This document shows, in pieces, positions 7,052-26,790 of a stretch of 28,883 nucleotides of DNA. A program made the translations under genes and the position numbers. The stretch lies in IMG/VR virus record IMGVR_UViG_3300032053_007684, positions 1-28,883 of that record; one strand, 5' to 3'. Numbering within the stretch: the stretch's first letter is position 1; each line of letters opens with the position of its first letter. The notes under the pieces are model-generated. The model had not been told where the DNA came from. It made no database searches and saw only the letters and a list, made by a program, of their open reading frames with translations. This DNA is from a virus.

Positions 7052-7657
7052 TCACTTTCGCTTCTTTGTACAGGCCTTGTCAAGAATGAGAACGCCTATG
7101 TCATAGATCGGCCTTTTATCGTTCATGAAACAAGTGTGCCAACGTAAGTTCTGTGTGTACTTTAATCGCATCAATGGTTGCAACTTCTTCCATGAAATGA
7201 ATTGAATGACGGGACCTGGACGTGAGCTGTCGAGCATGAGAAATCCTCGACGTGAATGATACAGGACTGCGACCCAATGCGACCATTTGTCGATGCACAG
7301 AATGACAGGGCGTTTTTTCTTCAAAGATGCCATGAGCAATTTCTTTGCGCCTGAGGCAGTGCGCCTTCGAGAGAAGCTGAGATGAAGGCCAAGCTTGAGC
7401 TTTTTGATGGCTTTTACGAGGGCTGAATCACTAGTCCCTGATCGTGTGGTGCCAGCAAGTTTTGCCAACCTTCGATCATCCACGTCGAATCCGTAACCAA
7501 ACAAGCAGTGACGTAGGGCCATAGGACCACAAGACCATTTGTTTCGTTGAGGATATACGATCGTTTGTTCGGTGATGACGGCAGGGTCACCCTTGCGCCC
7601 ATTTCCAGCATTGCGATAGATTGCCTTTGTAAGTGAACGATTGGACACTTTGCCCAT
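7052..7657 (-). CDS. C39-like papain-fold peptidase
   Basis: 201 aa. The motif Q-x5-C-G (Gln37, Cys43 in QRNKWSCGPMALRHCL), a later WSHWVAV (His127) and MLDSS (Asp143) give the Gln, Cys, His and Asp of peptidase family C39, which includes the protease domains of double-glycine bacteriocin exporters. TTRSGTS and the KAIKKLKLGL segment also fit the family order. There is no ABC transporter domain and no signal peptide, so it should be a soluble cytoplasmic protein. The first 28 residues are basic. It sits 30 bp after the NAMPT gene on the same strand. Its substrate is unknown; it could process a phage protein or target a host factor. Confidence 0.72.
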   Translation of the reverse strand: MGKVSNRSLTKAIYRNAGNGRKGDPAVITEQTIVYPQRNKWSCGPMALRHCLFGYGFDVDDRRLAKLAGTTRSGTSDSALVKAIKKLKLGLHLSFSRRRTASGAKKLLMASLKKKRPVILCIDKWSHWVAVLYHSRRGFLMLDSSRPGPVIQFISWKKLQPLMRLKYTQNLRWHTCFMNDKRPIYDIGVLILDKACTKKRK

Positions 7658-7687: not shown

Positions 7688-9073
7688 TCAGGTCGCGCGG
7701 GCTCTGACTTCGTCGAGCGTCGTTTCATTGAGCGATTCTCCGTTTTCAAAGACAGTGTGCATGATCGAATTCGTAGAACTGACGTGTCCAGAACCAAGCC
7801 TGATCACAGTCCAAATATGCTCATGCTCATCATATTCGAGATCAAGGCGTCCAGGCTTTGATCGCTTTCCATGATCAGTGATGGGATCCTTGAAGACATC
7901 TCGTTCTTCACCATTCACCGTCACAGAACTGCACTTCATTGCGAACTTTTGGGTGTCGCGATTATGGTGTTGTAGCAAGCCACCACCCATGCCGAATGCA
8001 ATATTCGATGCACTGAATCCACTCGCTTGGGCAACTAACAAGATATTGTTGATCGATTCAGCATTGATGCCATCGCCTTGAATGACGCGGACATTCTTCA
8101 ATACTTTGTATCCCTTTGTGTTCGTTGTCACGCCGAATTTGCTCTCGAGGGCTAGAAGCGTGTCTCTGACGATCGTTGTAGGATCACCAGAGTCTGGACG
8201 AATGATGAGTGTGGCGCCCGAATCAATAACGTCCTGTCGGAGCTCTTCGCCCCAGAGCTTGTTCACGGCATTGAAGAGATCATACGAATCAGAGACACAT
8301 GCGACGAGCGAATTGGGCTTTGCATACTGCCGAAGCATGTTCTTGTATGCATCGACTTCATGTTCCTTCCCCCATGCGGTGATCGTCGAATGTTCTGCGG
8401 CCGGGATCGAAAATGCTGACATCGGCGAATTATAGTAACGATTCGCCGCCATGACTCCTACGACGGTGTCGCTTCCCATGAAATTTACGAGGTGGGCAGC
8501 ACCGCCGATCGCTGCAGACTCGCGGCTCGAGACGCCTCGAGAACCGAAATCATGCAACTTGAAATTGATCTCAGCTGCAGGATCATCAGCCGTGTTCTTG
8601 AGAAAGGACATGATGTTCTTTTTGATGTGATAGCTCGTCGTTGCAACGTTGATCGGATGCCAGACGCGGACGAGCATTGTCTCGAGCCATGACGCCAGCC
8701 AGAAGACCTTCGGATCGGTCGATTCGATCGTCACTAGCGGTAGGTGCGTCGGAACAACGGTTCCTTCTGGGACTGCTCGAATGCGAACAGGCAGGCGACC
8801 ACCATGGGCGTTGACGATGTGCATCCAACCGTCGTAGTTGAACGGTTCTCCGTGCACTGCATAGAATGCTTTTGCCTCTTCGACCATTCCTTTTGTGATG
8901 CGTTCTGTCAGGTACTTCTTGACGTAGTATTGAAGCCCGAAGAAGACCGTCTTGTCATAGAGGCCTCCTCGACTTTCAATGTACGAGAACATGCTCGTAG
9001 TGCCGGGCGGGTACTGAAGCCAGTGACTCGCTTTGTATGAATCGACATCGAAAATAACATTAAAGTCGTCCAT
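7688..9073 (-). CDS. nadV: Nicotinamide phosphoribosyltransferase
   Basis: 461 aa from the ATG at 9073; the GTG two codons upstream sits directly on the ribosome site. This is a full-length NAMPT: DVDSYKASHWLQYPPGT at the start, HDFGSRG in the middle, PAAEHSTITAWG with the catalytic His (residue 228), LIIRPDSGDP, and GMGGGLLQ near the end. It condenses nicotinamide with PRPP to give NMN, the rate-limiting step of NAD+ salvage. The next gene upstream in the transcript makes NAD+ from NMN, so together they form a complete two-step route. Phages with such pairs can restore NAD+ after host NADase defences act. The family is certain. Confidence 0.97.
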   Translation of the reverse strand: MDDFNVIFDVDSYKASHWLQYPPGTTSMFSYIESRGGLYDKTVFFGLQYYVKKYLTERITKGMVEEAKAFYAVHGEPFNYDGWMHIVNAHGGRLPVRIRAVPEGTVVPTHLPLVTIESTDPKVFWLASWLETMLVRVWHPINVATTSYHIKKNIMSFLKNTADDPAAEINFKLHDFGSRGVSSRESAAIGGAAHLVNFMGSDTVVGVMAANRYYNSPMSAFSIPAAEHSTITAWGKEHEVDAYKNMLRQYAKPNSLVACVSDSYDLFNAVNKLWGEELRQDVIDSGATLIIRPDSGDPTTIVRDTLLALESKFGVTTNTKGYKVLKNVRVIQGDGINAESINNILLVAQASGFSASNIAFGMGGGLLQHHNRDTQKFAMKCSSVTVNGEERDVFKDPITDHGKRSKPGRLDLEYDEHEHIWTVIRLGSGHVSSTNSIMHTVFENGESLNETTLDEVRARAT

Positions 9074-9109
9074 TTTCACTCTCCGTGATGTCCCCGCGGG
9101 CCTCTCTGG
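9074..9109 (-). promoter_or_regulatory. Leader of nadV, shared with the nadM-like gene
   Basis: Read on the minus strand, CAGAGAGG (complement of 9101-9108) is followed after about 13 bases by CACGGAGAGTGA ending just before the ATG. The same two blocks, in the same order and about 15 bases apart, precede the NMN adenylyltransferase gene (10219-10256). GGAG within the second block is the ribosome site. The identity goes beyond what a ribosome site needs, so a shared control element or a local duplication is possible. Confidence 0.5.
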
Positions 9110-9126
9110 CTCGATCGGAACGTCTA

Positions 9127-10218
9127 TTAGAATCTCGTGACGAAAAAATTGATGATGTGGAAGTGATCTTCGAAGAACTCATTTTCACGAGAAAAGACGT
9201 CACGAAGCGGGACCCACCACGCCTTATCGGCGTCATCCATTCCCTTGACTTCTGGAAGATTTCCATCTTTTAGTTTGATGCAGAATGCGTGGGTGATCGT
9301 CCGACCGCGCAAGGAGCGGTGTGGGTGATCAAACACACGTTCGCCGACAATGTGTGATTTTAGGTCAGTTACAGGAATTTTGATTCCCGTCTCTTCCTTG
9401 AGTTCACGAATGCATCCGTCGACAATTTTTTCTTCTTGTTGGAGGAATCCACCCGGGAGTGCAATGAGGCCGCGGCCAGGAGCGCCCTTACGGCGGACGA
9501 CTAGGATGTGACCGCTGCAGATCACGACTGCATCAGTCGTCACAAACATGGGAGGAAATGGTGCATCTTCCCATTCGGCTTTGTATTGAACGATGTGGTC
9601 GTGCTCTTCCTTCAGACGCTTGAACTCAGGACCGTCCATGAAAGAGATGACGTAGTTGTACACGTAGAACGGAACGCGATCCTTGATCGTGATCTTGTCC
9701 TGTTTGAACATCATGTCGCGAATCTTTGTCGCATCACAGTGCACATCGAAGAACTCAGTCTCAATGAACTTCCACTGTGGGAAAAGCTTCAGATAGAAAC
9801 TCGTTTCGTCTTTCTTGTGACCGATCAGAACGACATCCTTCGATCCCTGCGTCACAGTCCCGATCGCCTGCTGCACAGCGGCAATCCAGAGATTTTCGTT
9901 GTAGAGATAGTCTTTTGCAGTGATGAAGATGATCTGATCGAGCACGTCTGCGGGAAGTTTTGTTCCCGTTGGTTCGATGTAATCTTTGTAAACCTTGGAC
10001 TGTGACATGACTACAGCATGTGCATCGACGGAGATCGCGGACTTCATCATCGCGATCCTCTCTTCAGAGGTCCAGGGGTTCTTTGTCGTTCGGGCTTGGT
10101 TGTCGCTTCCGATTACGATGATGAGCTTTTTCGCCTGCTTAAGTGCAAAACGCACCGTTTCCAGGTGCGCGTTATGAAATGGTTGAAACCGTCCGATGTA
10201 AATTCCAAACTCGTGCAT
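9127..10218 (-). CDS. nadM: Bifunctional NMN adenylyltransferase / Nudix hydrolase
   Basis: 363 aa. Residues 1-185 form a nucleotidyltransferase domain: GIYIGRFQPFHNAHLE carries the H-x-x-H site (His15, His18) and CDATKIRD the C-terminal adenylyl-binding motif. Residues 225-363 form a Nudix domain with the complete box G-x5-E-x7-RE-x2-EE-x-G (Gly257 to Gly278). NadM-Nudix fusions join NMN and ATP to NAD+ and hydrolyse ADP-ribose or related pyrophosphates. The gene lies 53 bp upstream of nadV with the same type of leader. The Nudix half could also clear ADP-ribose left by NADase defence enzymes. Both domains look intact. The symbol is assigned from domain architecture. Confidence 0.93.
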   Translation of the reverse strand: MHEFGIYIGRFQPFHNAHLETVRFALKQAKKLIIVIGSDNQARTTKNPWTSEERIAMMKSAISVDAHAVVMSQSKVYKDYIEPTGTKLPADVLDQIIFITAKDYLYNENLWIAAVQQAIGTVTQGSKDVVLIGHKKDETSFYLKLFPQWKFIETEFFDVHCDATKIRDMMFKQDKITIKDRVPFYVYNYVISFMDGPEFKRLKEEHDHIVQYKAEWEDAPFPPMFVTTDAVVICSGHILVVRRKGAPGRGLIALPGGFLQQEEKIVDGCIRELKEETGIKIPVTDLKSHIVGERVFDHPHRSLRGRTITHAFCIKLKDGNLPEVKGMDDADKAWWVPLRDVFSRENEFFEDHFHIINFFVTRF

Positions 10219-10256
10219 GTCACTCTCCGTGAAAGTTCTAGCAAACCCTCTCTGGG
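10219..10256 (-). promoter_or_regulatory. Leader of the nadM-like gene, second copy of the shared element
   Basis: On the minus strand it reads CCCAGAGAGGG, about 15 unrelated bases, then CACGGAGAGTGAC directly before the ATG at 10218. It matches the nadV leader at 9074-9109. The GGAG is six bases from the ATG and serves as the ribosome site in both. The bases between the blocks are not conserved, which argues for selection on, or recent copying of, the two blocks themselves. Confidence 0.5.
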
Positions 10257-10267
10257 CTTATCGCTAG

Positions 10268-11735: not shown

Positions 11736-12302
11736 TCACACTACGAGCCAATCCTTGACTTCTTCCCAAGAACGAAGTCGCATCCAAGCTTGTCGATTTT
11801 CCTCAAGATCCTTGTACGTAAGGTCATCCATGCTTTTTTCAACGATGATGGGATCCATGTTTGGGACGACCTTTACGATCCCGACACCATAATCATAGTT
11901 GCCGACGATGCAATTGAGCCCTTGATCTGCTCGAAGGTGTGCCATCGCTCGCCAAGCTGTTCCGCAAGCATCTTGAAGTTCGTATCGTTCATTGTGGGGA
12001 TTGCAATCGTGCATCACGATCAGTCCACCTTCATTGAGGATCTTCAATGAATTTCTCACGTCAGACATGACTTGCGTATGATGGTGATACGCATCAATGA
12101 AGACGATGTCGAACGTCTCTTTGTTCTGTGCAAAGAATTCGTCAGTCGTCATCCTGAGTGTTCCACCTTCAACAGAATCGACGCCGACCTTGTAGAGACA
12201 GTCGATCGCATTGAAATTGCTGTTGTGCCAACACCCGAGCTCGAGGTATGAATTGTATGAGTGAGCCTGGATTGCGTGTCTGATTGTCTGTGTTCTGTTC
12301 AT
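11736..12302 (-). CDS. SAM-dependent methyltransferase, class I
   Basis: 188 aa from the ATG at 12302, chosen because it overlaps the upstream TGA as ATGA. The Rossmann core shows YLELGC (SAM-binding motif I, without the full Gly loop), GVDSVEG, FDIVFIDAYHHHTQVMSDV and GGLIVMHDCNP. This pattern matches the Methyltransf_24-like group that often accompanies glycosyltransferases and methylates sugars. The acceptor is not evident. A second member of this general group lies at 25736-26461, but the two are not close copies. Confidence 0.8.
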   Translation of the reverse strand: MNRTQTIRHAIQAHSYNSYLELGCWHNSNFNAIDCLYKVGVDSVEGGTLRMTTDEFFAQNKETFDIVFIDAYHHHTQVMSDVRNSLKILNEGGLIVMHDCNPHNERYELQDACGTAWRAMAHLRADQGLNCIVGNYDYGVGIVKVVPNMDPIIVEKSMDDLTYKDLEENRQAWMRLRSWEEVKDWLVV

Positions 12303-13237
12303 GTCATCTCCAAGAGTGTCATTGCCGTGTTCACCCATGTGTTAGAGTCTCGAATGTACTGCACTGATGAATCGATGATCGCTTGACGTTCATCACTGTC
12401 CATCGCCTTGATGCCCTTCACGATGTCATGCAATTCTGCAACTGAACCATACGTTTTAACGGTCGGAATATTGCCAACATATAACTGCATGTCATTATCA
12501 CTGAATTTTTCTCGAAGGCTCCAGCAGCCTTGCGCTGCCACTTCAATGTCTCTGATCCAGATACCGTGTCCTACGTTTGTCTCTGTACCATCGAGGAGCT
12601 TGATTGGATTGTTTTCACTGCGAACGAAGATCTTGATGTCACGAAGCGTGTTCAAGTATGCATCATAATTGCGATTGTTTCCATGCATGATGTACGTTTG
12701 CATCCCCAATTTTTGCATGTCATTGAAGAGCGCTCGTCTATGTGGATGAACAGTGCCGACAAATCCAAGTTCATGCAAACGATGATCATAGTGATTATCA
12801 CTATTGCAATACTTTGAAAGCACACCCATCTTCACAAATATGCTTGGAACTCCTTTTGAATTGAGGTAATCTGACCACCATTTCGTTGTGACAGCAACGG
12901 TCCCTAGGTTCGTATTTTCAACCAACCAATCATAGAGTCCCGGATATGGCGTAGAGGCATCATATGCGCCCCATGGATCTTGATCATACATGACATATGA
13001 AGTATGACTTAGGTAACTTCTGAGGTTCATTCGGTAGGCTGAAATGCTTCGTTGTTTGAGACAACACACAACTTTGTCGTACCCTTGAGGCATTGATGTG
13101 CTGCCCAATTCAGCTAATGTCACTAGTCTGACTTCAGCAACTTCTTCAAGCGCTGATAAAAGTTGATGCTGGTAACAGTTCGTCGTGACATATTCCAGAC
13201 TGTCAACAAGCTGTAATACGCGCTGTTTGGGTGTCAT
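12299..13237 (-). CDS. GT-B glycosyltransferase, CgeB/GT4-like
   Basis: 312 aa. LGFVGTVHPHRRALFNDM in the middle, then YIMHGNNRNYDAYLNTLRDIKIFV and IRDIEVAAQGCW, follow the order of CgeB-like glycosyltransferases: a Gly and Arg phosphate loop, a sugar-nucleotide loop and a Glu near the end. The N-terminus is divergent. The start overlaps the preceding glycosyltransferase gene by 35 bp and the stop overlaps the methyltransferase start as ATGA. Donor and acceptor are unknown. The family call is reasonable but weaker than for the GT4 enzymes with a clear E-x7-E motif. Confidence 0.72.
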   Translation of the reverse strand: MTPKQRVLQLVDSLEYVTTNCYQHQLLSALEEVAEVRLVTLAELGSTSMPQGYDKVVCCLKQRSISAYRMNLRSYLSHTSYVMYDQDPWGAYDASTPYPGLYDWLVENTNLGTVAVTTKWWSDYLNSKGVPSIFVKMGVLSKYCNSDNHYDHRLHELGFVGTVHPHRRALFNDMQKLGMQTYIMHGNNRNYDAYLNTLRDIKIFVRSENNPIKLLDGTETNVGHGIWIRDIEVAAQGCWSLREKFSDNDMQLYVGNIPTVKTYGSVAELHDIVKGIKAMDSDERQAIIDSSVQYIRDSNTWVNTAMTLLEMT

Positions 13238-13928
13238 ATGTTTCCTTTGCTTCGTTGAACAACTTTATGAACAGAGGATCTGTGTAGTTGAATTGATTAT
13301 TAAACTTATTTGACATTGCAGCGCCGATAATTGCAAATCCACGAATCCTATCATAGTGATGCCTCACCCATGCATGGTGAACCTTTGATATTGTTTCTCC
13401 GTGATTCTTCAGTGCTCGATGCGCACCGTAGTGGAACGCTTGTAATTCAGATGCATGAGCACAGTGAAATCCAGCCGGGATCAACAATTGTGGCAGTTCT
13501 GCCTGGTGAAGGACGATGTCGTGTCCTGAATCGACCCCTCTATCACAATAGAGGTCGCTCTTTGAATCATTGAATGTTACAACTGGACTGAAACAATTTA
13601 AGCCATTGATCAGATCGTCTGTCATGTAGTCCCACAATGGTGCCTGAATCGCTGTAACACGAGGGTTTGCCTCGAATTGTTTCCAAATATCTTCGAGTGT
13701 TGACGGATTCCTAAGAACTGTGTCAGCGTCGACCTTTACGAACAAATCATGATTCACACGAGCAGCACGCCAGGCCGCCCAGAGTGAATTGTGTGCATCT
13801 TTTTCAGGAAGACCTGCGACGAGGTAGTGCGTCACATCAACATTCAATTGTACGTGAATCATCCTCAAACAATCTTGAAAGTCTCCTTCACCTGAAGACA
13901 TCGTTCCGACAAATATTCTGGGTCTCAT
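13203..13928 (-). CDS. GT-A fold glycosyltransferase
   Basis: 241 aa. It starts RIFVGTMSSGEGDFQDC, a GT2-like first strand, and has LFVKVDADTVLRNPSTL, with the D-x-D metal site used by GT-A enzymes. Later FHYGAHRALKNHGETISKVHHAW may supply the acceptor-side residues. The 241 residues correspond to a minimal GT-A domain with no membrane segment, so it should act in the cytoplasm. The ATG overlaps the stop of the formyltransferase gene (ATGA), linking it to the amino-sugar genes. Confidence 0.75.
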   Translation of the reverse strand: MRPRIFVGTMSSGEGDFQDCLRMIHVQLNVDVTHYLVAGLPEKDAHNSLWAAWRAARVNHDLFVKVDADTVLRNPSTLEDIWKQFEANPRVTAIQAPLWDYMTDDLINGLNCFSPVVTFNDSKSDLYCDRGVDSGHDIVLHQAELPQLLIPAGFHCAHASELQAFHYGAHRALKNHGETISKVHHAWVRHHYDRIRGFAIIGAAMSNKFNNQFNYTDPLFIKLFNEAKETYDTQTARITAC

Positions 13929-14695
13929 TTCATATCCTCAAGTGAAAGTGTGATCTTCTTATTTCCAACGACAATATACGGCTTGGGCTTGTTTGGAAAC
14001 GTCAATGCACGGACTTCATTGTACAATTGTTTTGGTGAATCTAACAATGATGAATTTATTTCTAGTGAAAGATCTTTGGCACGATACGTGTAAAATGGGT
14101 CGGCCGCGGGGATGAATTTCTTTATTTGTCCTTCACAAATGTCATCGATGTTTGTTTCCAACATCCACAATCCTATGTTATTCACTTTTTCGAATAATGA
14201 ACCAGCCGTGTCGTCTAGACTGATGTTACAGGGTCTTGAATCAATGATCGGTCCATCATCAAGCGATTCATTCATGTAATGGAGTGTGCTACCGTGCAAA
14301 GTCTCACCATTTCTTATTGCCCAAGTTGCACAATGTCGACCTCTATATTGTAACCTCAGTGAATGGTGAAGATTAATGATCCCAAGAGGAACACGCTCTA
14401 TGTCGTGCTTTGTGATGATCTTCCAATAACCTAGCGAGATGATGAGATCAGAATTTTCAATGACTTCTTCTAATGAAGAAAATTTTCTTTGAGCAGAGTA
14501 TGCTGTGCACCGAGCATCAAATAATGAGTGATCATCAACGAGGAAACCGCTCAAATCAAAGTGTTTTTGTTGGTCGGGATGATACTGAAATGTTGAATCT
14601 TTAAGACGCTCGAGCGCATGACCTGCATCGAGGGTCCAATTGACGTATGGAACGAAATAATCACGTGAACTGATTAGAAAGCCGACGCGGACCAT
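13925..14695 (-). CDS. Sugar N-formyltransferase-like protein
   Basis: 256 aa. The catalytic pattern of N10-formyltetrahydrofolate-dependent formyltransferases is present: GIINLHHSLRLQYRGR (Asn108, then His), ETLHGSTLHYM (His134) and SLDDGPIID (Asp146). The family includes methionyl-tRNA formyltransferase and sugar N-formyltransferases such as VioF and WbkC. The neighbours, an aminotransferase, a dehydratase and a reductase, favour a sugar substrate: the 4-amino group made by the DegT enzyme could be formylated here. The C-terminal 70 residues are unlike the tRNA-binding domain of Fmt. Sugar identity is inferred. Confidence 0.85.
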   Translation of the reverse strand: MVRVGFLISSRDYFVPYVNWTLDAGHALERLKDSTFQYHPDQQKHFDLSGFLVDDHSLFDARCTAYSAQRKFSSLEEVIENSDLIISLGYWKIITKHDIERVPLGIINLHHSLRLQYRGRHCATWAIRNGETLHGSTLHYMNESLDDGPIIDSRPCNISLDDTAGSLFEKVNNIGLWMLETNIDDICEGQIKKFIPAADPFYTYRAKDLSLEINSSLLDSPKQLYNEVRALTFPNKPKPYIVVGNKKITLSLEDMK

Positions 14696-14696
14696 A

Positions 14697-15866
14697 TCAT
14701 TCCTCGACCTTCACCATCTCTTCACAAAGTGCTCGTGTTGTAGCAATCATATGAATCAAGTCCTCGGTGTCAAGCCACCAACCACAAGGTAATGAAAATT
14801 GTCTCGATGAAAAGTCATCAACGCTTGGGAGGTCTTTATAGAAATCTTCGAAGCAGGTATAGTGATGATTTGGAACGTGTACGAGGCCCGCTTTTATGCC
14901 AGCATCGTTCAATGAAGCGACAAGTTTGTCACGATTGACCCTCTTGTCTTTGATGAGTACAGTGTAGACCCAATGCGCAGACTTTGCGCCAGCGTAAGAT
15001 AGTAGCGGCTGGATGAATTCATCATTTGCGAATGCAACGTTCAGGACTTCTGCACTTCTTCTGTGTCCTGAAAGAATCTTGTTCATGTGCGGGAGTTGAG
15101 CTAAGCCGATTGCAGCTGATACGTTGTTCATGTTGAATTTGTATCCTGCTTCAATGATGTCAAAGTCCCAATGTTGACCCTTCCAGTTTCCTTGAGCGTC
15201 CTTTGCGTGTTCTCTATTGATTCCGAACCACTTGAGTTGTTTTGCACGTTCAAAATCTTCTTTGTCTTTGCACACCAAGATTCCGCCGTCTCCCGTAGTG
15301 ACATGTTTGATCGCTTGCAGGCTGTAACACGTGTAGTCTGCAAATTCTGAGACCTGCTTATCATCAAACGTTGCACCCATTGCATGGGCTGCATCTTGAA
15401 TTAGCTTAACACCAGCTTTTTCACATATGCTTTTCAATCGTGGAAGGTCACAAGGATTTCCTGCCCAATCAACTGCCATCACTGCTTTGTACTTGTGATG
15501 TTTTGGATGTGCAGACAAAAGCTCTTCAACTTTATCAGGATCAATGCAGCCTGTTCTAGAATCAATGTCAGCCCAGTGTGGGTATGCGCCTGCTGTCATG
15601 ATCGGCGTATTGGTCGCAACGCATGTCATAGCCGTGCTAATGACCCAGTCACCTGGTTTGACACCTGACAATTTGAGTGCAAGGGTGAGTGCAGATGTGC
15701 AACTGTTTGTCAAACACGTGTTCTCTCCGAACAGCTTCTGAAACTCAGCTGTCAACTGTGTGACCTGTTCACCTTCATTGATGAATCCACTCTCAAAGAC
15801 TTTTCGCATCTCTGCTAGGGCTTCTTCGACTGGAATGTGAACTTTGAAAAGTGGTTGTGTCTTCAT
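14697..15866 (-). CDS. DegT/DnrJ/EryC1-type sugar aminotransferase
   Basis: 389 aa, the usual length of the family. SCTSALTLALKLSGVKPGD begins the cofactor domain, IQDAAHAMGA carries Asp158 and His161, and YSLQAIKHVTTGDGG carries the PLP-binding Lys187. Members transfer an amino group from glutamate or glutamine to a nucleotide 4-keto (or 3-keto) 6-deoxy sugar. The adjacent 4,6-dehydratase gene (1-bp overlap, TGATG) would make the keto substrate, and the formyltransferase gene downstream would act on the amine. This gives a coherent three-gene pathway. Position specificity (C4 or C3) cannot be told from sequence. Confidence 0.93.
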   Translation of the reverse strand: MKTQPLFKVHIPVEEALAEMRKVFESGFINEGEQVTQLTAEFQKLFGENTCLTNSCTSALTLALKLSGVKPGDWVISTAMTCVATNTPIMTAGAYPHWADIDSRTGCIDPDKVEELLSAHPKHHKYKAVMAVDWAGNPCDLPRLKSICEKAGVKLIQDAAHAMGATFDDKQVSEFADYTCYSLQAIKHVTTGDGGILVCKDKEDFERAKQLKWFGINREHAKDAQGNWKGQHWDFDIIEAGYKFNMNNVSAAIGLAQLPHMNKILSGHRRSAEVLNVAFANDEFIQPLLSYAGAKSAHWVYTVLIKDKRVNRDKLVASLNDAGIKAGLVHVPNHHYTCFEDFYKDLPSVDDFSSRQFSLPCGWWLDTEDLIHMIATTRALCEEMVKVEE

Positions 15867-16915
15867 CAGTCTTTCCTGTTTGTTGCAATCTCTTCGACAG
15901 ATGCACCCATAAATTGTTCGAGAGGCTTGTCAAGGATGCCTAATTCACTGAGATATCGTTCCAGTGCAACACGATCCATGACAATATCTGAACTTGAATA
16001 CGTGAAACGTGCACCTGAACCCGCATTGAATGCAGGGCCAATTACGTAATTGAAACCAATGGGAGGGGTGAGCTGATGTGTTCGAACTGATTCTGATTCG
16101 TTGATTAGATCTTCATGTTTCTTCTCACCAGGTCTCAATCCAATTATTTTAATGGGCTTGTTATATCTCTTTGAAAAGATGTCTGCAAGGTCACCAATCT
16201 TCATTGCTGGCAAACATGGGATCCATGTTTCTCCTGAACTTCCGTGTTCAAGTGCTTTTTGGATTAACGTAACGCTGTCATCTAGCGTCATGATATATCG
16301 TGTCATCTCTGGATCTGTGATAGTCAGAAATTCGTTTTTCTCTCCTTGGTGTTTGAGAAGTGGAATTATGCTGCCGCGCGATTCGAGCACATTTCCATAA
16401 CGCACACATAGATAACGTATCGTTGTTACATTTCTGGATTGACTCGTGATGATTCGTTCAGAGATCGCTTTGCACATGCCATAGACGTTTACGGGAGCAC
16501 ATGCCTTGTCTGTCGACACAAACAATATGCTCTTGAGTGTGCATTCGTGTTGAGTATCATATACGTCATTTATTGCATCAAGAACGTTTTGCGTTCCAGA
16601 CAAATTTGTTGATATGCTCTCTGATGGACTAAGTTCACATGTATCGACTTGTTTGAGTGCAGCTGCAACAAGGATGATCGTGGGTCCCAGTTGCCTCATT
16701 GCATTCTTCAGCCTCTCTGTGTCTCTGATATCTCCAACAAAGAAATTCAATTGATGAAATTGTGGGTGATTTGCGAGTTCATTCTTGATTGTGAAATGTT
16801 TTGCCTCATCACGCGAATAGACAATGACTTCATCTGTTGGAAGCAGGCGCTCAATAAGCTTCTTGCCAAGCGAACCGGTACCTCCAATGATCAGGTATCG
16901 TTCTCGTTTTTTCAT
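15866..16915 (-). CDS. UDP-GlcNAc 4,6-dehydratase-like SDR (PseB/CapE/WbjB group)
   Basis: 349 aa. Rossmann loop GGTGSLG (residues 11-17), VSTDKACAPVNVYGMCKA with the catalytic Thr-Asp-Lys and Tyr145/Lys149 pair, CVRYGNVLESRGSIIPLL, DPEMTRYIMT and LRPGEKKHEDL are all hallmarks of the FlaA1/PseB/CapE nucleotide-sugar dehydratases. They remove water from UDP-GlcNAc to give a 4-keto-6-deoxy sugar, with or without inversion at C5. The product is the likely common substrate for the aminotransferase downstream and the RmlD-like reductase upstream. The gene is coupled on both sides (ATGA above, TGATG below). Confidence 0.93.
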   Translation of the reverse strand: MKKRERYLIIGGTGSLGKKLIERLLPTDEVIVYSRDEAKHFTIKNELANHPQFHQLNFFVGDIRDTERLKNAMRQLGPTIILVAAALKQVDTCELSPSESISTNLSGTQNVLDAINDVYDTQHECTLKSILFVSTDKACAPVNVYGMCKAISERIITSQSRNVTTIRYLCVRYGNVLESRGSIIPLLKHQGEKNEFLTITDPEMTRYIMTLDDSVTLIQKALEHGSSGETWIPCLPAMKIGDLADIFSKRYNKPIKIIGLRPGEKKHEDLINESESVRTHQLTPPIGFNYVIGPAFNAGSGARFTYSSSDIVMDRVALERYLSELGILDKPLEQFMGASVEEIATNRKD

Positions 16916-17739
16916 AGTGCTTTCAACATTTCATGAAATGGAGGAATCTTCAATTTTGCATTGAAATCGTGTACAGTTGATAATGTTCTGTCGACCATGA
17001 CTGGTGCATTGAAAATTTCAACATCAAGATTCAAGTCAAATTTTGTATTGAATGCGTTTAGCATCATGAATTTGCTAAGAGGAGTGGGATTGAAAATGTG
17101 CCATGTGCCAATCTCGTAAAGGTCATTTGAAATGATCCTATCGCATGCCTCTGCAAATGCCTTTGTCGTAAGACCGTTCCAAAAATGATTCGCATAACCG
17201 GAGACTTTTTGATTTTTATGACGTTTTGCCCACTCAAGTAAGCTGTAACCACCGTGCAATTCATCACCAATGAATGATGTTCTCAAAGTCAAACAATCAT
17301 CAGGTTCACCTAACAACTTAGTGTAACCATAATCATCTGCTGGATCTGGCGTGTCGAGCTCTGAATAATTTCCCTTTTTGCCGCTGTAAACACAGTCAGT
17401 TGTCACGTGAATCAATCGCATTCCATGTGTATTGCAGTACTCTGCGAGCTTCAATGGGAACAGTGAATTGATCTTGATCAATTGTTCGCGAGACCAAGTC
17501 CTCTGTTTGATTGCTCCGACGCAATTGATGACGTAATCGAACCCGGTTTCAAGGTGACTTTGATCTTCTAGAAACTGTTCAGCATTGAACTTGAAGTGAC
17601 AGTATTGCGAATAGTTGTGTCTGTCATCACGTAGTGACAGGCTTGGTTCAAATCTGTCGGCATTTTTAACGAGGTGTTGACCGACTGCATATCCTAACAT
17701 GCCGGTGCTTCCTAAAACGGCGACTCTATATGCTTTCAA
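16912..17739 (-). CDS. RmlD-like nucleotide-sugar reductase (SDR)
   Basis: 275 aa from a TTG start at 17739, preceded by an AAAGGA site; no ATG fits the alignment of the first strand. AVLGSTGMLG is the NAD(P) loop, VTTDCVYSG the active-site strand, and DYGYTKLLGE holds the Tyr137/Lys141 pair. The family reduces 4-keto-6-deoxy sugars, as RmlD does in dTDP-rhamnose synthesis and WbjC/WbvR-type proteins do in UDP-FucNAc and UDP-QuiNAc synthesis. Next to a UDP-GlcNAc dehydratase it could open a second branch, giving a 6-deoxy HexNAc. The first 14 bp lie inside the upstream glycosyltransferase gene. Confidence 0.88.
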   Translation of the reverse strand: MKAYRVAVLGSTGMLGYAVGQHLVKNADRFEPSLSLRDDRHNYSQYCHFKFNAEQFLEDQSHLETGFDYVINCVGAIKQRTWSREQLIKINSLFPLKLAEYCNTHGMRLIHVTTDCVYSGKKGNYSELDTPDPADDYGYTKLLGEPDDCLTLRTSFIGDELHGGYSLLEWAKRHKNQKVSGYANHFWNGLTTKAFAEACDRIISNDLYEIGTWHIFNPTPLSKFMMLNAFNTKFDLNLDVEIFNAPVMVDRTLSTVHDFNAKLKIPPFHEMLKAL

Positions 17740-18628
17740 CTGTCATCCTTTCAGGCGCAACGATTGTTGAGATTCGTGTTTCTTGGTAACCAAGTGATTC
17801 AACTTGTGGAGTTGCGATGTAACTTCCTGCTACGGACCCATTGAACCAGCTCAATTTTGCGTGAAACAGCCCGCCATCAAGCACACCGAACACTGGGTAC
17901 TTTTCATAGTATCTCAATTGATAATCGAGTTCACTGAACCTCGTTCCATTTACAGAAAGCTTTTGAAGGTCAGCAAACACATCATAAAATGCAGTCATGC
18001 GATTCACACTATGCAATTGTGAAAGGAATTGTGTGCGATAAAAATCAGGCACGTCAGTTGGTTCGAGTGTGATTCGTTGTTTTGTCACAGGATTCATCTG
18101 ATGGACCCATGCGTACATTTTTGATCCATCGACTGGTCGACCCTTATCATACAAGTGTGCCTGTGAAACGATGAACTCTTGACCACGAACACCGCCGACG
18201 TCTTGGTGATGATCCAAAAAATCTGAAATATCTTGAAGCTTTTCAAGAGCAAAGTGTGTGTGATCAGATTCAATCACATAGACGTACTGATAGTTTCGAA
18301 TCCAATCTGCACTGTTTAGGACCCAATTGATTGCTGACCAAAAACCTTCATTTTTCTGACTGCGAAAAATGATTGCTGACCAAAAACCTTCATTTTTCTG
18401 ACTGAGAGGTTCTTTTCTCATGATGCGTGGCTTTTGAAAGTTCGATTTCAAAAGCTCAATCGTACCAGGAAACGTTGAACCATTGTCAAATACGATCAGG
18501 TCATCTTCAATTGAGAAGTGTTTGCTCGCCTGTTCATCTTTGATGTTTGCGATAACGGTCTTCAAGATGTCATAACGTGTCTTCTCGACACAGCACGTGA
18601 CGAGCAAATATAGCGTTCTGTGTGTCAT
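17726..18628 (-). CDS. GT-A glycosyltransferase with an internal duplication
   Basis: 300 aa. IVFDNGSTF is the GT2-like nucleotide-binding turn and YVYVIESDHTHF sits where the D-x-D motif would be. The SQKNEGFWSAI segment, corresponding to the N-x-G loop that precedes the DxD, occurs twice, separated by three residues (IFR), because of a 35-bp DNA repeat that adds 14 residues in frame. The insert falls in a conserved donor-binding region and could change or abolish activity. The gene ends in TAG, one of three amber stops in the window. Confidence 0.75.
   Translation of the reverse strand: MTHRTLYLLVTCCVEKTRYDILKTVIANIKDEQASKHFSIEDDLIVFDNGSTFPGTIELLKSNFQKPRIMRKEPLSQKNEGFWSAIIFRSQKNEGFWSAINWVLNSADWIRNYQYVYVIESDHTHFALEKLQDISDFLDHHQDVGGVRGQEFIVSQAHLYDKGRPVDGSKMYAWVHQMNPVTKQRITLEPTDVPDFYRTQFLSQLHSVNRMTAFYDVFADLQKLSVNGTRFSELDYQLRYYEKYPVFGVLDGGLFHAKLSWFNGSVAGSYIATPQVESLGYQETRISTIVAPERMTVESI
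18328..18404. repeat. 35-bp perfect direct repeat, period 42 bp, inside a glycosyltransferase gene
   Basis: The two copies, 18328-18362 and 18370-18404, are identical and separated by seven unrelated bases (CGAAAAA). The period is a multiple of three, so the frame is kept and the protein gains 14 residues. Identity without silent changes indicates a recent event, or an assembly artefact. It is not a CRISPR unit: two copies only, a seven-base gap, within a coding region. Confidence 0.97.
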
Positions 18629-18629
18629 C

Positions 18630-19544
18630 TTACAACGACTGTATCAAATCACGGTACCCTTTGTATCCGTCGGGCAATTTCCATGTTTCAACATTAGGAA
18701 TTGCGGGTGTTGCATCAATGATGAGATCATCTGCAATTGCTGTAAATGGCAAAACTTGTTCAGCAATTCCGACAGGACGAGAAATCACGGGCACATTTAG
18801 CAATCCACATTCAATAAGTGATTGAGGACCGCCTTCTTGACGGGCTGTCACTGGAATGAGATCAAGTGTTTGATAAAGTTCATTGATGACTTCTTGTGAT
18901 GGACGTTCAAAGTATGTGTGCGGAATGTTCATTTGTTCAAGACGACTTAACACATATTGTCGACGCCATCCTGCTAAAACAACATGTAAATCATCTCTTA
19001 TCTCATAGAGTTGTTCGACAAAATTACAAAATAAATCGGGACCTTTTTCAAGTTTGGGTAAGAAAATTCCATGTGGAATTCCGGCCCCTTCTGTGTCACG
19101 TTGAAACGAACCAATCAAAAATGTATTGGGAGGTAATCCATGTTTTTTGCGCAATTCTTGTTTGGTTCCCGTAGGATGCCAAATTTTTTGATTCGCCCAA
19201 TAGTGGATGAGGTGAATTGGTTTAGTTGTGATCTTCTTGACGAAATCATACGTTCGTTCATTATACACGTGATAGACGGTCGTGATCGTGTCTCTTACAT
19301 CAAATTCAAATCGTTCTTGAGCACCGAACTTTTCTGGAACAATGTGATGAACTGATGTGATGACTGGAACCTTCTTCAAGAGGTTCTGTGAAACATGTTG
19401 CCAACGCCAGTCAGACAACAACCAAATGACATTTGCTTCCTGGGGCGTTGACACAGTGATGTCAGCATTGTCTTCCGACCATTCCTTAACGAAGCGATCA
19501 CAAATCCACTGTTCGTCAGCTGGTAATACATAGACCTTGTTCAT
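18630..19544 (-). CDS. GT4-like glycosyltransferase
   Basis: 304 aa. The C-terminal half has LIGSFQRDTEGAG (phosphate loop), LHVVLAGWRR and QEGGPQSLIECGLLNVPVIS, the E-x7-E donor motif, followed by VGIAEQVL. The N-terminal half is short (about 130 residues), with VIWLLSDWRWQHVS in the acceptor domain. It starts as ATGA on the stop of the next glycosyltransferase and ends two codons before the duplicated one. Sugar specificity is unknown. The compact size is typical of phage and capsule-type GT4 proteins. Confidence 0.85.
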   Translation of the reverse strand: MNKVYVLPADEQWICDRFVKEWSEDNADITVSTPQEANVIWLLSDWRWQHVSQNLLKKVPVITSVHHIVPEKFGAQERFEFDVRDTITTVYHVYNERTYDFVKKITTKPIHLIHYWANQKIWHPTGTKQELRKKHGLPPNTFLIGSFQRDTEGAGIPHGIFLPKLEKGPDLFCNFVEQLYEIRDDLHVVLAGWRRQYVLSRLEQMNIPHTYFERPSQEVINELYQTLDLIPVTARQEGGPQSLIECGLLNVPVISRPVGIAEQVLPFTAIADDLIIDATPAIPNVETWKLPDGYKGYRDLIQSL

Positions 19545-20503
19545 TTATACCCGTATTGTTCTCGTAACTCTTTGTGTACGACGCTGTCAAACAATTCGAT
19601 GTATGAACGCACGACATTTTCAATGTCGATGTCAGCACATGGTGTCAAAGAAGCCTTGTTTGGTAAGGCGACTAATTGTGTGACATCAATGTCGGGTGGA
19701 TTGTCGTAATCAGCGAGCTCATAATTGTACGTTGCATTTTCTTTCAGTGTGATGCCAAAACCTTCGACGAGTTCTTTTGTCCCACCCGAGTCGCTACATA
19801 TGATGGGCGTTTCCTGACTAAGCGCTTCGATCACGACGTTTGGACAGTGATCCAACCATGCAAGGTGAATCATCCAATCTGCCATGGCATACACTTGTAG
19901 GTACACTTCTTCTGGTACTGCACCTGTGTAGAATATTCTTGAGTCAGCGACTCGAACGTCTGGGTTGGCACCCATCACTATCAAACAACTGTTTGGATAT
20001 GTGAATTGAAGGTGTTTAAACATCAAAATGTTGTCTTTTAGGCGTTTTTGAGGGTGCCAATTTGAAGAACAAACAAAGATTTTGTCGAACTTCTTTCTCA
20101 TCTCCATGAGTTCTGGGCTCGAGAATTGTGTGACCTTCTTCGTAAGGTCAAATCCATTGTGGATGACGCGACCTGAATGTGGCACATCCCACCAATTCAC
20201 TGTCATATTGCGATCGAATTCAGACTGCCAGACAACGGCATCAGCTGTCTTGTACAGTTCGTGGATTCCACGATTCTTCGTGGCATACTCTTCAGGGTGA
20301 AACCATATGCCATCTAGGCGCTGGATTACTTTTTCTGCAAGGGGTTGTCCCGTTTTTTCGATAAAGACGAGTGAGACATCAGCTCCGGGGGCTGACAGTT
20401 CGATTTCGTGGCCGGCTTGGTATAGACCTCTTGCTAGTCGATTTGCAAAAGCATTTGGGCCAGAATGGCTATTCCATACGATACCATCGAAATGTACTTT
20501 CAC
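19541..20503 (-). CDS. GT4-like glycosyltransferase
   Basis: 320 aa. FDGIVWNSHSGPNAFANRLA opens the acceptor domain, FVCSSNWHPQKRLKD is the Arg/Lys phosphate loop and HCPNVVIEALSQETPIICSDSGG is the E-x7-E region (the first acidic residue is replaced by Asp in LDHCPN). RIFYTGAVP precedes it as in family members. It is coupled to both neighbours by ATGA overlaps. It probably belongs with the other glycosyltransferases to one glycan assembly set, but order of action cannot be inferred. Confidence 0.87.
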   Translation of the reverse strand: MKVHFDGIVWNSHSGPNAFANRLARGLYQAGHEIELSAPGADVSLVFIEKTGQPLAEKVIQRLDGIWFHPEEYATKNRGIHELYKTADAVVWQSEFDRNMTVNWWDVPHSGRVIHNGFDLTKKVTQFSSPELMEMRKKFDKIFVCSSNWHPQKRLKDNILMFKHLQFTYPNSCLIVMGANPDVRVADSRIFYTGAVPEEVYLQVYAMADWMIHLAWLDHCPNVVIEALSQETPIICSDSGGTKELVEGFGITLKENATYNYELADYDNPPDIDVTQLVALPNKASLTPCADIDIENVVRSYIELFDSVVHKELREQYGYK

Positions 20504-20871
20504 GCTCGCCTCTTGATCTCCAGAAGAAGTGGCATTGCAAAATCAGTGCCACTTAGTAGTACGGCTAATAGCGCGATCTCTTTTGTTTCAATTCCATCGA
20601 GCTTTGCACGTTGGGTGAAAATGTTTGGATCGAGCTCCTGTGTGTTATTTATCAGGACGCCGTCATAATATTGCTGGGCGAGGTAATTCATTGACTCATT
20701 TGTGAGTTCAACGTTTGATTGTTCGAAGAGGTCAACGAGGCTGTCAAAGATCTCTTGATAGATCTTGACACATGTGTATACGTTGATTGATTCGGCTTGG
20801 TATTTTTGAAGGCGAGCGCCCAAAAGTCTACTCACTGCATCGTGAAATGTCTTAGCGGGCTCGGCGCTCAT
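20500..20871 (-). CDS. Small unknown protein, member of a tandem pair
   Basis: 123 aa, mostly helical, with no membrane segment. Its C-terminal half (ELTNESMNYLAQQYYDG, later LAVLLSGTDF and LLLEIKRR) aligns loosely by eye with the next gene (HLDSISIEWLTTTYFKS, ILSTLFRNTD, LLEELNRR). The two are probably old tandem duplicates. It overlaps both neighbours by 4 bp (ATGA). I recognise no family; a small structural or accessory protein is possible. Confidence 0.6.
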   Translation of the reverse strand: MSAEPAKTFHDAVSRLLGARLQKYQAESINVYTCVKIYQEIFDSLVDLFEQSNVELTNESMNYLAQQYYDGVLINNTQELDPNIFTQRAKLDGIETKEIALLAVLLSGTDFAMPLLLEIKRRA

Positions 20872-21260
20872 GACATGTTCTTTCGACGATTTAGTTCTTC
20901 GAGTAGTTTGTCGCCGATGTCAGTGTTTCGAAACAGCGTAGAAAGTATCCGAACATCAATGAATGGTAAATCAGCTGGCTCAACATCATTTGAGACGATC
21001 TGATCACCCATGAGTGCTTGACCTGCTTGACCTGCATCAATGAATGCTGATTTGAAGTATGTTGTTGTCAACCATTCAATAGAGATTGAATCGAGATGTG
21101 TCGTGCTCTTTGCAAATGTGTTTGTGAGAAGCGTCTTGATCTCATGTTTGATGTCATGGTACGTTTGATTGCTGACAGGCTGACCAACAAACTTTTGCTT
21201 CAAAATGTCATTGAGGGTGCGGGTGAGCATGTCAGCGAACATGCCCGGGTGATTACTCAT
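20868..21260 (-). CDS. Small unknown protein, second member of the tandem pair
   Basis: 130 aa, helical, with a short repeated AGQAGQ (encoded by a 9-bp tandem) in its middle. It resembles the 123-aa product of the downstream gene in overall order: an early F-x-D helix, a YW-type strand region, a TD and a final ELNRR. Its ATG overlaps the TGA of a 40-codon open remnant (21257-21379) as ATGA, which suggests that it once followed a longer gene directly. Function unknown. Confidence 0.6.
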   Translation of the reverse strand: MSNHPGMFADMLTRTLNDILKQKFVGQPVSNQTYHDIKHEIKTLLTNTFAKSTTHLDSISIEWLTTTYFKSAFIDAGQAGQALMGDQIVSNDVEPADLPFIDVRILSTLFRNTDIGDKLLEELNRRKNMS

Positions 21261-21379
21261 TTAGTGTTCTCCATGAAGTCAACATATTCCTTGACACAAG
21301 GTAACCAATCTCGGGTCGGTTGACAACTTAAAGATGTTTCCACGAATGTCTTAAACGAATTTTTCAATTGTTCGTTTGC
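21257..21379 (-). pseudogene. Orphan C-terminal tail of a displaced gene, probably a glycosyltransferase
   Basis: A 40-codon frame without a suitable start runs from just after a TAA (21380-21382) to a TGA that overlaps the next ATG as ATGA. It reads like real protein (LKNSFKTFVETSLSCQ, then WLPCVKEYVDFMENTK) and ends like a glycosyltransferase C-terminal helix. It is in the same frame as the glycosyltransferase at 21554-22486, with the GIY-YIG gene between them. I infer that it is the original end of that gene, cut off by the insertion. Confidence 0.5.
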
Positions 21380-21620
21380 TTACGTTGAACTCAAATGTTG
21401 CCTCAATCACAAGAATGAAACTACTTTCACCATACAAACGAATTGCATCATGTAGATGATATCGATGTTCTTGTTTCGCTTGACGCTTATGTGCCATCCA
21501 TCGTGATTTAGCGTTGCCTTTTCCAACATACGACTTTCCGGTGATTGTACAAGTTAGACGATAGACTTCCCACACACGCTTTCGATGTATGTTATGTAGT
21601 TTTGTATTGTTTGATTCCAT
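21351..21620 (-). CDS. Short GIY-YIG endonuclease-like protein inserted at a gene end
   Basis: 89 aa. WEVYRLTCTITGKSYVGKG is the GIY-YIG core, followed by SRWMAHKRQAK (Arg and His) and HLHDAIRLYGESSFILVIEAT, the usual second half of the domain. There is no C-terminal DNA-binding part and the frame stops abruptly (RTIEKFV), so it is a minimal or truncated endonuclease. The first 66 bp are shared, in another frame, with the end of the upstream glycosyltransferase, and an orphan tail lies beyond. It could be a degraded homing endonuclease or an active stand-alone GIY-YIG protein. Confidence 0.75.
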   Translation of the reverse strand: MESNNTKLHNIHRKRVWEVYRLTCTITGKSYVGKGNAKSRWMAHKRQAKQEHRYHLHDAIRLYGESSFILVIEATFEFNVSKRTIEKFV

Positions 21621-22486
21621 GTTAAAAATTTCGTTAAATTCGAACTAAATTTTTTCTTTAAAAGAAGATGTTCAAGCTCATCAAATGTTGAAAATACGTG
21701 ATCATCCCCCGCAAATTCAACTGCGCCACCGCCATCTTTATGAACATAAGTTGGTAATCCACACGTGATTGGTTCAATCACACTATTTGGACCAGGATCA
21801 AATCGACTAGCATTTATGCATACATCGTATTTACCAATTTCGTTTGCCAACAATCGTCCGCTAAGAGGTCTTACATATGAACTATTTTTAAATTGTGCCT
21901 TCGTACGACCAATGAATGTGAATGTGAATTCATTAGTATATTTCCCAATGAATTCATCAAGCCACTCAGCATAATCTTGTCCTTTCATATAATTGTCTGA
22001 CCAGTGTGACATTAGCAAATTTATTTTGCCATTGTTCAATTTGGGTTGTTGTTTGAAGAGTTCATGGTCGACGCCGTTCACAATGACAGTGTTGTTTTCA
22101 CACTTCCAACCCTTTTCGAGGAAATAATCGCGTTGCCAATTTGAAACAAAGATCGCTCCGTCCATGTATCCAGATAGTGTGATCAACATTGGATCAACTG
22201 TCGATGTGCCCTTTCGTGCGTCGTTTTCATTGACGCGGAGGAACAATTTGACGACTCGTTTTCCCTCCATCATGTTTTTGTACATGATTGCCTGTTCGGC
22301 AGAAATTCCATAGCCATCATTGTCGATGCCCGCAAGCAACATGACGTCGGGCGCGACCATTGCGTTATCGGCGGCGATCAGTTCGTGTGGAGACATCTCG
22401 GGCACATGCTTATACATGGCTTTTACGAACATGTTCCCGCCTCCCCACGCTGCATTGACAGGTTTGCGATTGATGTAGATCTTCAT
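21554..22486 (-). CDS. GT4-like glycosyltransferase with an altered C-terminus
   Basis: 310 aa. NAAWGGGNMFVKAMY starts the acceptor domain; NLLMSHWSDNYMKG and FTFIGRTKAQ form the donor loop; FDPGPNSVIEPITCGLPTYV is the donor motif (Asp-x7-Glu form), followed by KDGGGAVEF. The last 22 residues overlap the GIY-YIG gene in another frame. The final third of the gene looks more AT-rich than the rest, consistent with replacement by incoming DNA. The ATG at 22486 opens the long minus-strand operon and has no ribosome site. Confidence 0.85.
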   Translation of the reverse strand: MKIYINRKPVNAAWGGGNMFVKAMYKHVPEMSPHELIAADNAMVAPDVMLLAGIDNDGYGISAEQAIMYKNMMEGKRVVKLFLRVNENDARKGTSTVDPMLITLSGYMDGAIFVSNWQRDYFLEKGWKCENNTVIVNGVDHELFKQQPKLNNGKINLLMSHWSDNYMKGQDYAEWLDEFIGKYTNEFTFTFIGRTKAQFKNSSYVRPLSGRLLANEIGKYDVCINASRFDPGPNSVIEPITCGLPTYVHKDGGGAVEFAGDDHVFSTFDELEHLLLKKKFSSNLTKFLTWNQTIQNYITYIESVCGKSIV

Positions 22487-22492
22487 GTTGTA

Positions 22493-22521
22493 ATTCTACA
22501 CTTTCTTGTATCGATGGTCAA
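22493..22521 (-). promoter_or_regulatory. Sigma70-like promoter for the long minus-strand carbohydrate operon
   Basis: On the minus strand, TTGACC (22516-22521) and TAGAAT (22493-22498) are 17 bp apart, the best -35/-10 match I found in the window. The -10 box ends six bases before the ATG at 22486, so transcription would begin at or next to the start codon and the mRNA would be nearly leaderless. No ribosome site competes with this reading. Promoter activity is inferred from sequence alone. Confidence 0.5.
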
Positions 22522-22541
22522 TTTCAGGCTCGGAGGTAAAC

Positions 22542-22577
22542 ATGTATACACATGAGGCTTACAATAAGTGCAAATGA
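22542..22577 (+). CDS. Possible 11-codon leader peptide coupled to the epimerase gene
   Basis: The reading frame MYTHEAYNKCK has the best ribosome site in the area (GGAGG, then five bases, then ATG). Its TGA overlaps the ATG of the epimerase gene (22574) as ATGA, whereas the epimerase ATG itself has no close ribosome site. Ribosomes could therefore load on this mini-ORF and restart on the epimerase. The peptide has no run of one amino acid, so classic attenuation is not evident. Confidence 0.4.
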   Translation: MYTHEAYNKCK

Positions 22578-26461: not shown

Positions 26462-26790
26462 TTCCACTCGCCTCCCAAGGTCCTATATTCAATCGGATGA
26501 TTGATCGACTTTGCATGTTCAATCCCGTATTTCATGCCGCGGGAACGTCCTAAGTCACAGTACACGACTGTCTTGTCTGCAACTGAACGCCACAAGAATC
26601 CCGCTTGGATTCCTAACTCTCGTTCATGAATGTCTTCGTCTATGAGGACGCCTGGTTGTGTATAAAGGCCGTGTGATGCAAACGGCGATTCATCATGGTT
26701 GACGATGCAGTCGTGCATACAAGCCCGGAGATAACGTGTGTTCTTTGGGATGTCACCTGCATAGGGCGACTCAATGATGACGCGTTTCAT
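26458..26790 (-). CDS. DUF7768-like protein, nucleoside deoxyribosyltransferase fold
   Basis: 110 aa from the ATG at 26790 (ATGA overlap). RVIIESPYAGDIPKNTRYLRACMHDCI opens it, then ESPFASHGLYTQPGVLIDED, ERELGIQAGFLW and TVVYCDLGRSRGMKYGIEHA. This matches the small phage and bacterial proteins grouped as DUF7768, related in fold to nucleoside 2-deoxyribosyltransferases and DUF4406. The biochemical role is not established; action on a nucleotide or nucleotide-sugar is plausible here. It lies between a large glycosyltransferase gene and a methyltransferase gene in a coupled operon. Confidence 0.8.
   Translation of the reverse strand: MKRVIIESPYAGDIPKNTRYLRACMHDCIVNHDESPFASHGLYTQPGVLIDEDIHERELGIQAGFLWRSVADKTVVYCDLGRSRGMKYGIEHAKSINHPIEYRTLGGEWK

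Follow-up and report, generated by a model that had tools for sequence, protein, structure and literature searches.

Bacterial defences against phages commonly end in the depletion of NAD+. The locus analysed here, on a 28.9-kb virus fragment from IMG/VR (the whole stretch of DNA studied, referred to as the window), raised the question of whether it encodes a complete route for rebuilding NAD+ and how such a route might be controlled. The initial annotation had described two adjacent enzymes with all their catalytic motifs, a two-step conversion of nicotinamide into NAD+ and an organisation of the NARP2 type.

An enzyme pair of a known kind

Both genes lie on the minus strand and were assigned from profiles, motifs and PDB homologues. 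The first (9127..10218) encodes a bifunctional NMN adenylyltransferase/Nudix hydrolase of the NadM/NatV type (NMNAT/Nudix, 363 aa) and is followed, after a gap of 53 nt, by the gene of a nicotinamide phosphoribosyltransferase (NAMPT/NadV; 7688..9073; 461 aa counted from the ATG). The ATG at 9073 was considered a more probable start for NAMPT than a GTG at 9079, the latter falling within the Shine-Dalgarno hairpin of the NAMPT leader described below.

NAMPT carries the domains PF18127 and PF04095, matched PHROG 448 in a profile search (E=1e-159) and scored 645 bits against NCBIfam NF006629 (cut-off 405). Its best PDB homologue was the Xanthomonas NAMPT 7yqo (591 bits), to which it is much closer than to other branches. 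The motifs DSYK, HDFGSRG, PAAEHS (with the catalytic His), IRPDSGDP and GDGIN were all found, and their columns were near-invariant in an alignment of 15 phage homologues. NMNAT/Nudix carries PF01467 and PF00293, matched PHROG 395 (profile search, E=3e-78), scored 424.6 against NCBIfam NF003791 (cut-off 409) and matched the bifunctional NMNAT/Nudix structure 2qjo with 360 bits; the motifs GRFQPFHNAH and DATKIR were present together with a perfect Nudix box, GFLQQEEKIVDGCIRELKEETG. Its NMNAT domain also contains an insertion of ~26 residues (residues about 64-92) that was absent in 11/11 aligned homologues.

Both genes occurred together in 157 of 179 homologous viral loci, and therefore their adjacency is not due to chance. 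The nearest relatives of the window were contigs of 309-340 kb with the same gene order: UDP-glucose dehydrogenase, a small protein, NMNAT/Nudix, NAMPT and then PTH2, HD and PD-(D/E)XK. Among the phage records of INPHARED, 461 matched NMNAT/Nudix and 1911 matched NAMPT; a megablast search of the same collection returned no DNA-level relative of the window.

The profiles, NCBIfam cut-offs, PDB homologues, motifs and conserved pairing thus bear out the description of two adjacent enzymes with complete catalytic motifs. By motif and homology both appear intact, which supports the two-step enzymology: NAMPT would convert nicotinamide and PRPP into NMN, NMNAT would convert NMN into NAD+, and the Nudix half would probably hydrolyse ADP-ribose. 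The NARP2-type organisation was supported as well, since both enzymes are intact, their order is conserved and the second is clearly a NAMPT rather than a Namat.

The pair is therefore of a known kind, NadM/NatV plus NadV, a salvage route of the NARP2 type. NadV together with NadM has been described as a phage NAD+ pathway directed against NADase effectors, every phage with NadM also carrying NadV (PMC9503650), and NARP1 and NARP2 are counter-defences that replenish NAD+ (PMC11984713). The same two enzymes, with the same NMNAT-Nudix fusion, are found in phages such as Vibrio phage KVP40. Like them, the window has a NAMPT with the catalytic His and the PRPP/NMN-binding motifs, an NMNAT with the GxFxPxHxxH and an ISTxxR-like motif fused to an intact Nudix box, and both genes side by side in a phage genome (an IMG/VR virus record). 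NARP1 (Adps plus Namat) leads to the same end product, and Namat is a homologue of NAMPT; however, NARP1 has an Adps gene, whereas the window pairs NAMPT with NMNAT, and no PRPS/Adps gene was detected among the window genes scanned. A Namat/NARP1 identity for the window NAMPT (P0001) was rejected, its top PDB matches being true NAMPTs (427-591 bits) with no Adps gene adjacent.

While the enzymes and the salvage organisation of the initial annotation stood, a structured RNA leader before each of the two genes had been missed. The sources on NadV-NadM and NARP2 make no mention of a leader RNA either. The enzyme pair was already known, and it is the two-hairpin leader that was previously uncatalogued.

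Structure of the leader RNAs

Each leader consists of two tandem hairpins, HP1 with a conserved pentaloop and HP2, located directly upstream of the ATG, with the Shine-Dalgarno sequence in a GGANN loop, within ~45-60 nt and with about 10 nt from HP1 to HP2. Leader 1, before NMNAT/Nudix, occupies 10219..10267 on the minus strand. Its HP1 (10238..10267) has an outer stem CUAGC/GCUAG (10263-10267 with 10238-10242), an inner stem AAGCCC/GGGUUU and the pentaloop AGAGA (10249-10253), and its HP2 (10220..10232, UCAC-GGAGA-GUGA) holds the Shine-Dalgarno GGAG in the loop (10224-10228) and ends 1 nt before the ATG. Leader 2, before NAMPT, lies at 9074..9121 on the same strand. Its HP1 (9090..9121) has an outer stem GUUCC/GGGAC (9117-9121 with 9090-9094), an inner stem GCC/GGC and again the pentaloop AGAGA (9103-9107), and its HP2 (9076..9088), also UCAC-GGAGA-GUGA, has the Shine-Dalgarno in the loop (9080-9084). 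Model R1 matched leader 1 with 52.1 bits (E 5.7e-13) and leader 2 with 48.7 bits (E 5e-12), the window being part of its training set. Both leaders adopted the expected hairpins on MFE folding, with a z of -2.4 for leader 1.

In both window genes, CCAGAGAGG within HP1 is followed by a short linker and then by CACGGAGAGTGA directly before the ATG. The identical 12-mer CACGGAGAGTGA and CCAGAGAGG occur before these two genes only, as counted over the 28.9-kb fragment, and further copies elsewhere in the phage are possible. The relatives L002-L006 also carry the leader, with protein identities of no more than 47-65%.

The pairing was assessed with HP1 anchored on its loop letters and HP2 anchored on GGA, neither of which selects on pairing. 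In the 78 leaders with an HP1 of the form GATAGAC, the first two stem pairs were paired in 99%, versus 43% and 59% with arms swapped among leaders; the 47 CAGNGAG leaders gave 96% and 98%, versus 52% and 45%. The same HP1 7-mers elsewhere in the loci were paired in about 40-50% of cases. An HP2 stem of at least 4 bp around the GGANN loop was present in 94% of 122 leaders. The share dropped to 3.3% in 389 control genes whose Shine-Dalgarno contains GGA, and to 10.7% after exchanging arms. Covariation reached 1.09-1.12 versus 0.20-0.25 for shuffled alignments, in alignments that include elements chosen for pairing, and two-sided changes were seen at 11/12 pairs (type-1 set) and 12/12 pairs (mixed set), whereas slid controls collapsed. 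Of these results, the two anchored comparisons are the unbiased ones. The existence of the two-hairpin element is near certain.

Conservation was confined to the two pentaloops (NNRGA-like in HP1); the stems diverge completely, and the linker between HP1 and HP2 is A/C-rich and G-poor with no fixed position. This pattern bears on whether the element acts as DNA. Inverted repeats before NAD genes look like operators, and NrtR is a known NAD regulator, so that a DNA-level operator for such a transcription repressor, in place of an RNA structure, was considered. Nevertheless, the arms vary freely around a conserved loop, opposite to what a protein-DNA palindrome shows. HP2 has the Shine-Dalgarno at its centre, and every short intercistronic gap holds a copy, all of which makes this explanation very improbable.

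Other RNA-based arrangements were also discarded. Attenuation by an intrinsic terminator was rejected, as a U-tract follows neither hairpin. A pseudoknot between the HP1 loop AGUGA and the CAC of HP2 was dismissed, since AUAGA and AGAGA, the commonest loops, are unable to form it. A CsrA/RsmA double-site leader was rejected for most lineages: HP2 has GGA, but most HP1 loops (AUAGA, AGAGA, ACAGA) do not, the GGAGU loop of HP1 in some alphaproteobacteria being the exception.

Distribution in phages and on bacterial chromosomes

The pattern CCAGNGAGG-N8..32-ACGGAGAGT (17 bases) was scanned across 2.9 million viral contigs of IMG/VR and yielded 81 stretches. All of the matches located 2-6 nt before the start codon of a long ORF and in a hairpin context precede NMNAT/Nudix or NAMPT; the remaining ones, not before a start codon, were set aside as chance matches within coding or other DNA. 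When the set of viral loci was enlarged by 160 loci, a strict tandem-hairpin finder detected the element in 62/122 NMNAT and 55/124 NAMPT leaders (117/246), against 28/802 other genes of the same loci (Fisher 6e-58). About half of the NMNAT/NAMPT leaders had no recognised element, some of them having loop lengths outside the models. On whole phage genomes (130-480 kb), the strong matches of models R1 and R2 lay almost only at the NAD genes.

Two main types of HP1 were found, G-AUAGA-C and C-AGNGA-G, the window belonging to the latter, and the loop letters varied by lineage (AUAGA, ACAGA, AAAGA, AGAGA, AGUGA, GGAGU). Among cultured phages, LucasX, RcXuper and Synechococcus B23 share the architecture with the loop AUAGA, BUCT-ZZ01 does so with AAAGA, and the Erwinia and XbC2 phages have a variant with a 6-nt loop. 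KVP40-like, Caulobacter Ccr10 and Milchi phages had no element in their NMNAT/NAMPT leaders; likewise, the NAMPT leader of Vibrio nt-1 (KVP40-like) lacks it, unlike that of the window. Nor did the NAMPT-only phages examined have the leader. Certain phages also carry the element before pnuC (PF04973, E=2e-37; L138:902, L151:867).

The same leader was additionally seen before several small ORFs of unknown function (L126:3612, L171:3072, L132:3624, L132:6737, L145:3400, L154:3693, L157:684, L127:3274). Their proteins, for example PHROG 33851, 12218 and 1843, are candidates for new NAD-related functions.

The leader was likewise present before the same two genes on bacterial chromosomes of Xanthomonadaceae, Caulobacteraceae, Burkholderiales, Campylobacterota and cyanobacteria. 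The carriers were Stenotrophomonas, Luteimonas, Burkholderia, Methyloversatilis, Caulobacter, Asticcacaulis, Marinobacter, Erythrobacter, Roseibium, Methylosinus, Sulfurovum and a cyanobacterium. It was found in 17/37 NAMPT and 15/84 NMNAT leaders of bacteria versus 3/1041 control genes, two of these three having an AUAGA loop. Model R1 gave no matches in bacteria, and R2 or R3 was needed. In 17 whole bacterial genomes (2.4-7.8 Mb), the significant matches of R3 were essentially only at these leaders, some of which had also served to train it. E-values of the custom models are rough, and their training sets share some members with the test sets.

A more independent test than the 17-genome search was provided by 99 genomes of the Stenotrophomonas family (Xanthomonadaceae), 18 of which had matches, each matched locus with NMNAT and/or NAMPT alongside. 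The leader occurred in 18 of the 21 genomes with NAMPT and in 0/78 without it (p=5e-17). For Caulobacteraceae the figures were 4/5 and 0/55, and for the two families pooled 22/26 and 0/133. Since bacterial chromosomes hold this operon too, complete with the RNA leader, it serves nicotinamide salvage in general and is found in phages as well; it is not a counter-defence restricted to phages.

Several bacterial loci carried variants or additional copies. In several alphaproteobacteria, the loops of both HP1 and HP2 are GGAGU. The NAMPT leaders of Psychrobacter (L339, L343, L378, L393) have a Shine-Dalgarno hairpin CAGA-GGAGU-UCUG, and in L378 a GATAGAC hairpin lies upstream of it at a greater distance; this spaced variant was missed by the models. 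Downstream of one bacterial NMNAT-NAMPT operon, an SPFH/flotillin-like gene (L329, about 8683, plus strand) has its own copy of the leader; a flotillin gene also lies upstream of NMNAT in Brevundimonas phage Domovoi.

Possible mode of control and neighbouring genes

HP2 places the Shine-Dalgarno in a loop that adjoins the start codon or overlaps it, a position that suggests regulation at the level of translation. A separate copy of the leader for each cistron, even at a gap of 53 nt, together with the missing U-tract, likewise favours translation over transcription attenuation. Therefore, the leader was interpreted, with a probability of about 60%, as a translational switch that represses NAD salvage when NAD is ample, its effector being a metabolite or an RNA-binding protein. 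We infer translational control and the kind of effector from the architecture, and the direction of the switch is taken from the analogy with NAD+-I. Each salvage gene would be controlled by a separate copy of this conserved cis-regulatory RNA. With plentiful NAD+, pathway metabolite or sensor protein, the HP1-HP2 unit would be closed and the ribosome kept off; when NAD+ falls, for instance through a host NADase defence, HP2 would open and the salvage enzymes would be made. Variation of the HP1 loop letters by lineage, and the lack of the element in about half of the NMNAT/NAMPT leaders, count against this switch.

An explanation with no switch at all would have HP2 lowering translation constitutively or acting as a thermosensor, and HP1 serving as an mRNA-stability hairpin on a mobile cassette. 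HP2 alone would indeed cut initiation, and the NMNAT-NAMPT cassette is mobile between phages and bacteria. Nevertheless, a hairpin with a purely passive role would not require a conserved HP1 pentaloop at a fixed spacing, and separate copies have been retained on each gene and on pnuC while the stems diverged completely, which renders this explanation improbable.

Since conservation is limited to two pentaloops with a free linker, and GGAGU can occupy both loops, the effector of a translational switch could be either a metabolite held by a compact receptor or a dimeric protein seated on the two loops; direct metabolite binding and a dimeric RNA-binding protein were given roughly even odds against each other. 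A metabolite-sensing riboswitch, in which the two-hairpin unit would bind NAD+, NMN, nicotinamide or ADP-ribose directly and with no protein, is quite possible, though short of being favoured outright. As in riboswitches, a conserved structured leader is tied here to one metabolic pathway, and it would control only genes of NAD salvage or transport (NMNAT, NAMPT, pnuC) in very different phages and hosts, across which no shared regulator is known. There is also the precedent of NAD+-I from Acidobacteria, a pair of tandem bulged stem-loops with the RBS in the second (domain II), which is off at high NAD+ (PMC10702441). On the other hand, the conserved unpaired bases are few, the linker is variable and the loop letters change between lineages. 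Two conserved pentaloops with a free linker are thin for a small-molecule pocket, and recognition by a protein fits them at least equally.

The logic of NAD+-I (nadA motif), with tandem stem-loops upstream of NAD biosynthesis and the RBS in the second, is strikingly similar to that of the window element; however, NAD+-I has conserved J1-1a/J1b-1a bulges, whereas the window element consists of plain hairpins with conserved pentaloops. NAD+-II (pnuC motif), a single P1/P1a/pseudoknot aptamer found in Streptococcus (PMC7749635), also sequesters the RBS and controls pnuC, but it is one pseudoknotted aptamer, in contrast to two separate hairpins of broad distribution. No Rfam 15 family, the NAD+-I and NAD+-II models included, matched the window or six homologous type-1 loci at E<=5, and searches of the openly accessible journal literature on phage or NAD-linked riboswitches returned no description of this element.

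Alternatively, the leader may be the operator of an RNA-binding protein that grips both loops as a dimer, possibly by autoregulation through NMNAT/Nudix or NAMPT, a reading that is advanced tentatively. These two are the proteins always encoded beside the element, the loops of HP1 and HP2 can be alike (GGAGU in both in some alphaproteobacteria), and the flexible A/C linker between them is as expected for a dimer binding two sites. Autoregulation by NMNAT/Nudix would agree with the lack of a leader in the NAMPT-only phages, and the Nudix domain of the window protein weakly matches the model of the repressor NrtR (E 9e-8). CFIm25, a protein of the Nudix fold, dimerises and contacts RNA at two sites. 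CsrA is an unlikely candidate for the protein, given that the HP1 loop is usually not GGA.

If the translational switch holds, an RNA sensing NAD status would couple the counter-defence immediately to what provokes it, and it would account for phages sparing themselves costly salvage enzymes when these are not needed. Compared with NAD+-I (Acidobacteria) and NAD+-II (Streptococcus), it would also be an NAD-linked RNA of much wider occurrence, in Pseudomonadota, Campylobacterota, cyanobacteria and many large phages. The leader might then represent a third class of NAD-responsive regulatory RNA, widespread and shared by phages and hosts, switching on the rebuilding of NAD+ at depletion, that is, a counter-defence triggered by the very metabolite that the defence removes; this wider proposal is a speculative one.

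With regard to the genes surrounding the pair, a C39-peptidase-like protein (7052-7657, minus strand) directly follows NAMPT in the window, a place taken by other genes in the relatives; in L003, a small phosphatase-like ORF and a macro-domain-like ORF (ADP-ribose processing) were recognised by eye directly after NAMPT (8704-9623). A protein like the peptidyl-tRNA hydrolase PTH2 (6180-6734, minus strand; PHROG 1866) is syntenic in L002 and L003. Next to it, a RelA/SpoT-type HD domain protein resembling a (p)ppGpp hydrolase (5560-6183, minus strand) is found beside the NAD genes in relatives too, and in Mesorhizobium phage Cp1R7A-A1 a gene annotated as (p)ppGpp synthase/hydrolase directly precedes NMNAT. 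A tRNA with the anticodon CUA (5473-5545, minus strand), which reads amber, may have a suppressor role. Wholesale amber recoding on account of this tRNA looks unlikely, as TAG still ends 2/35 genes and readthrough would add 19-62 codons. Finally, a large sugar/glycan block (12299-28724) contains a DegT aminotransferase, a formyltransferase, epimerases and several glycosyltransferases, and probably serves the modification of virion or host surface glycans.
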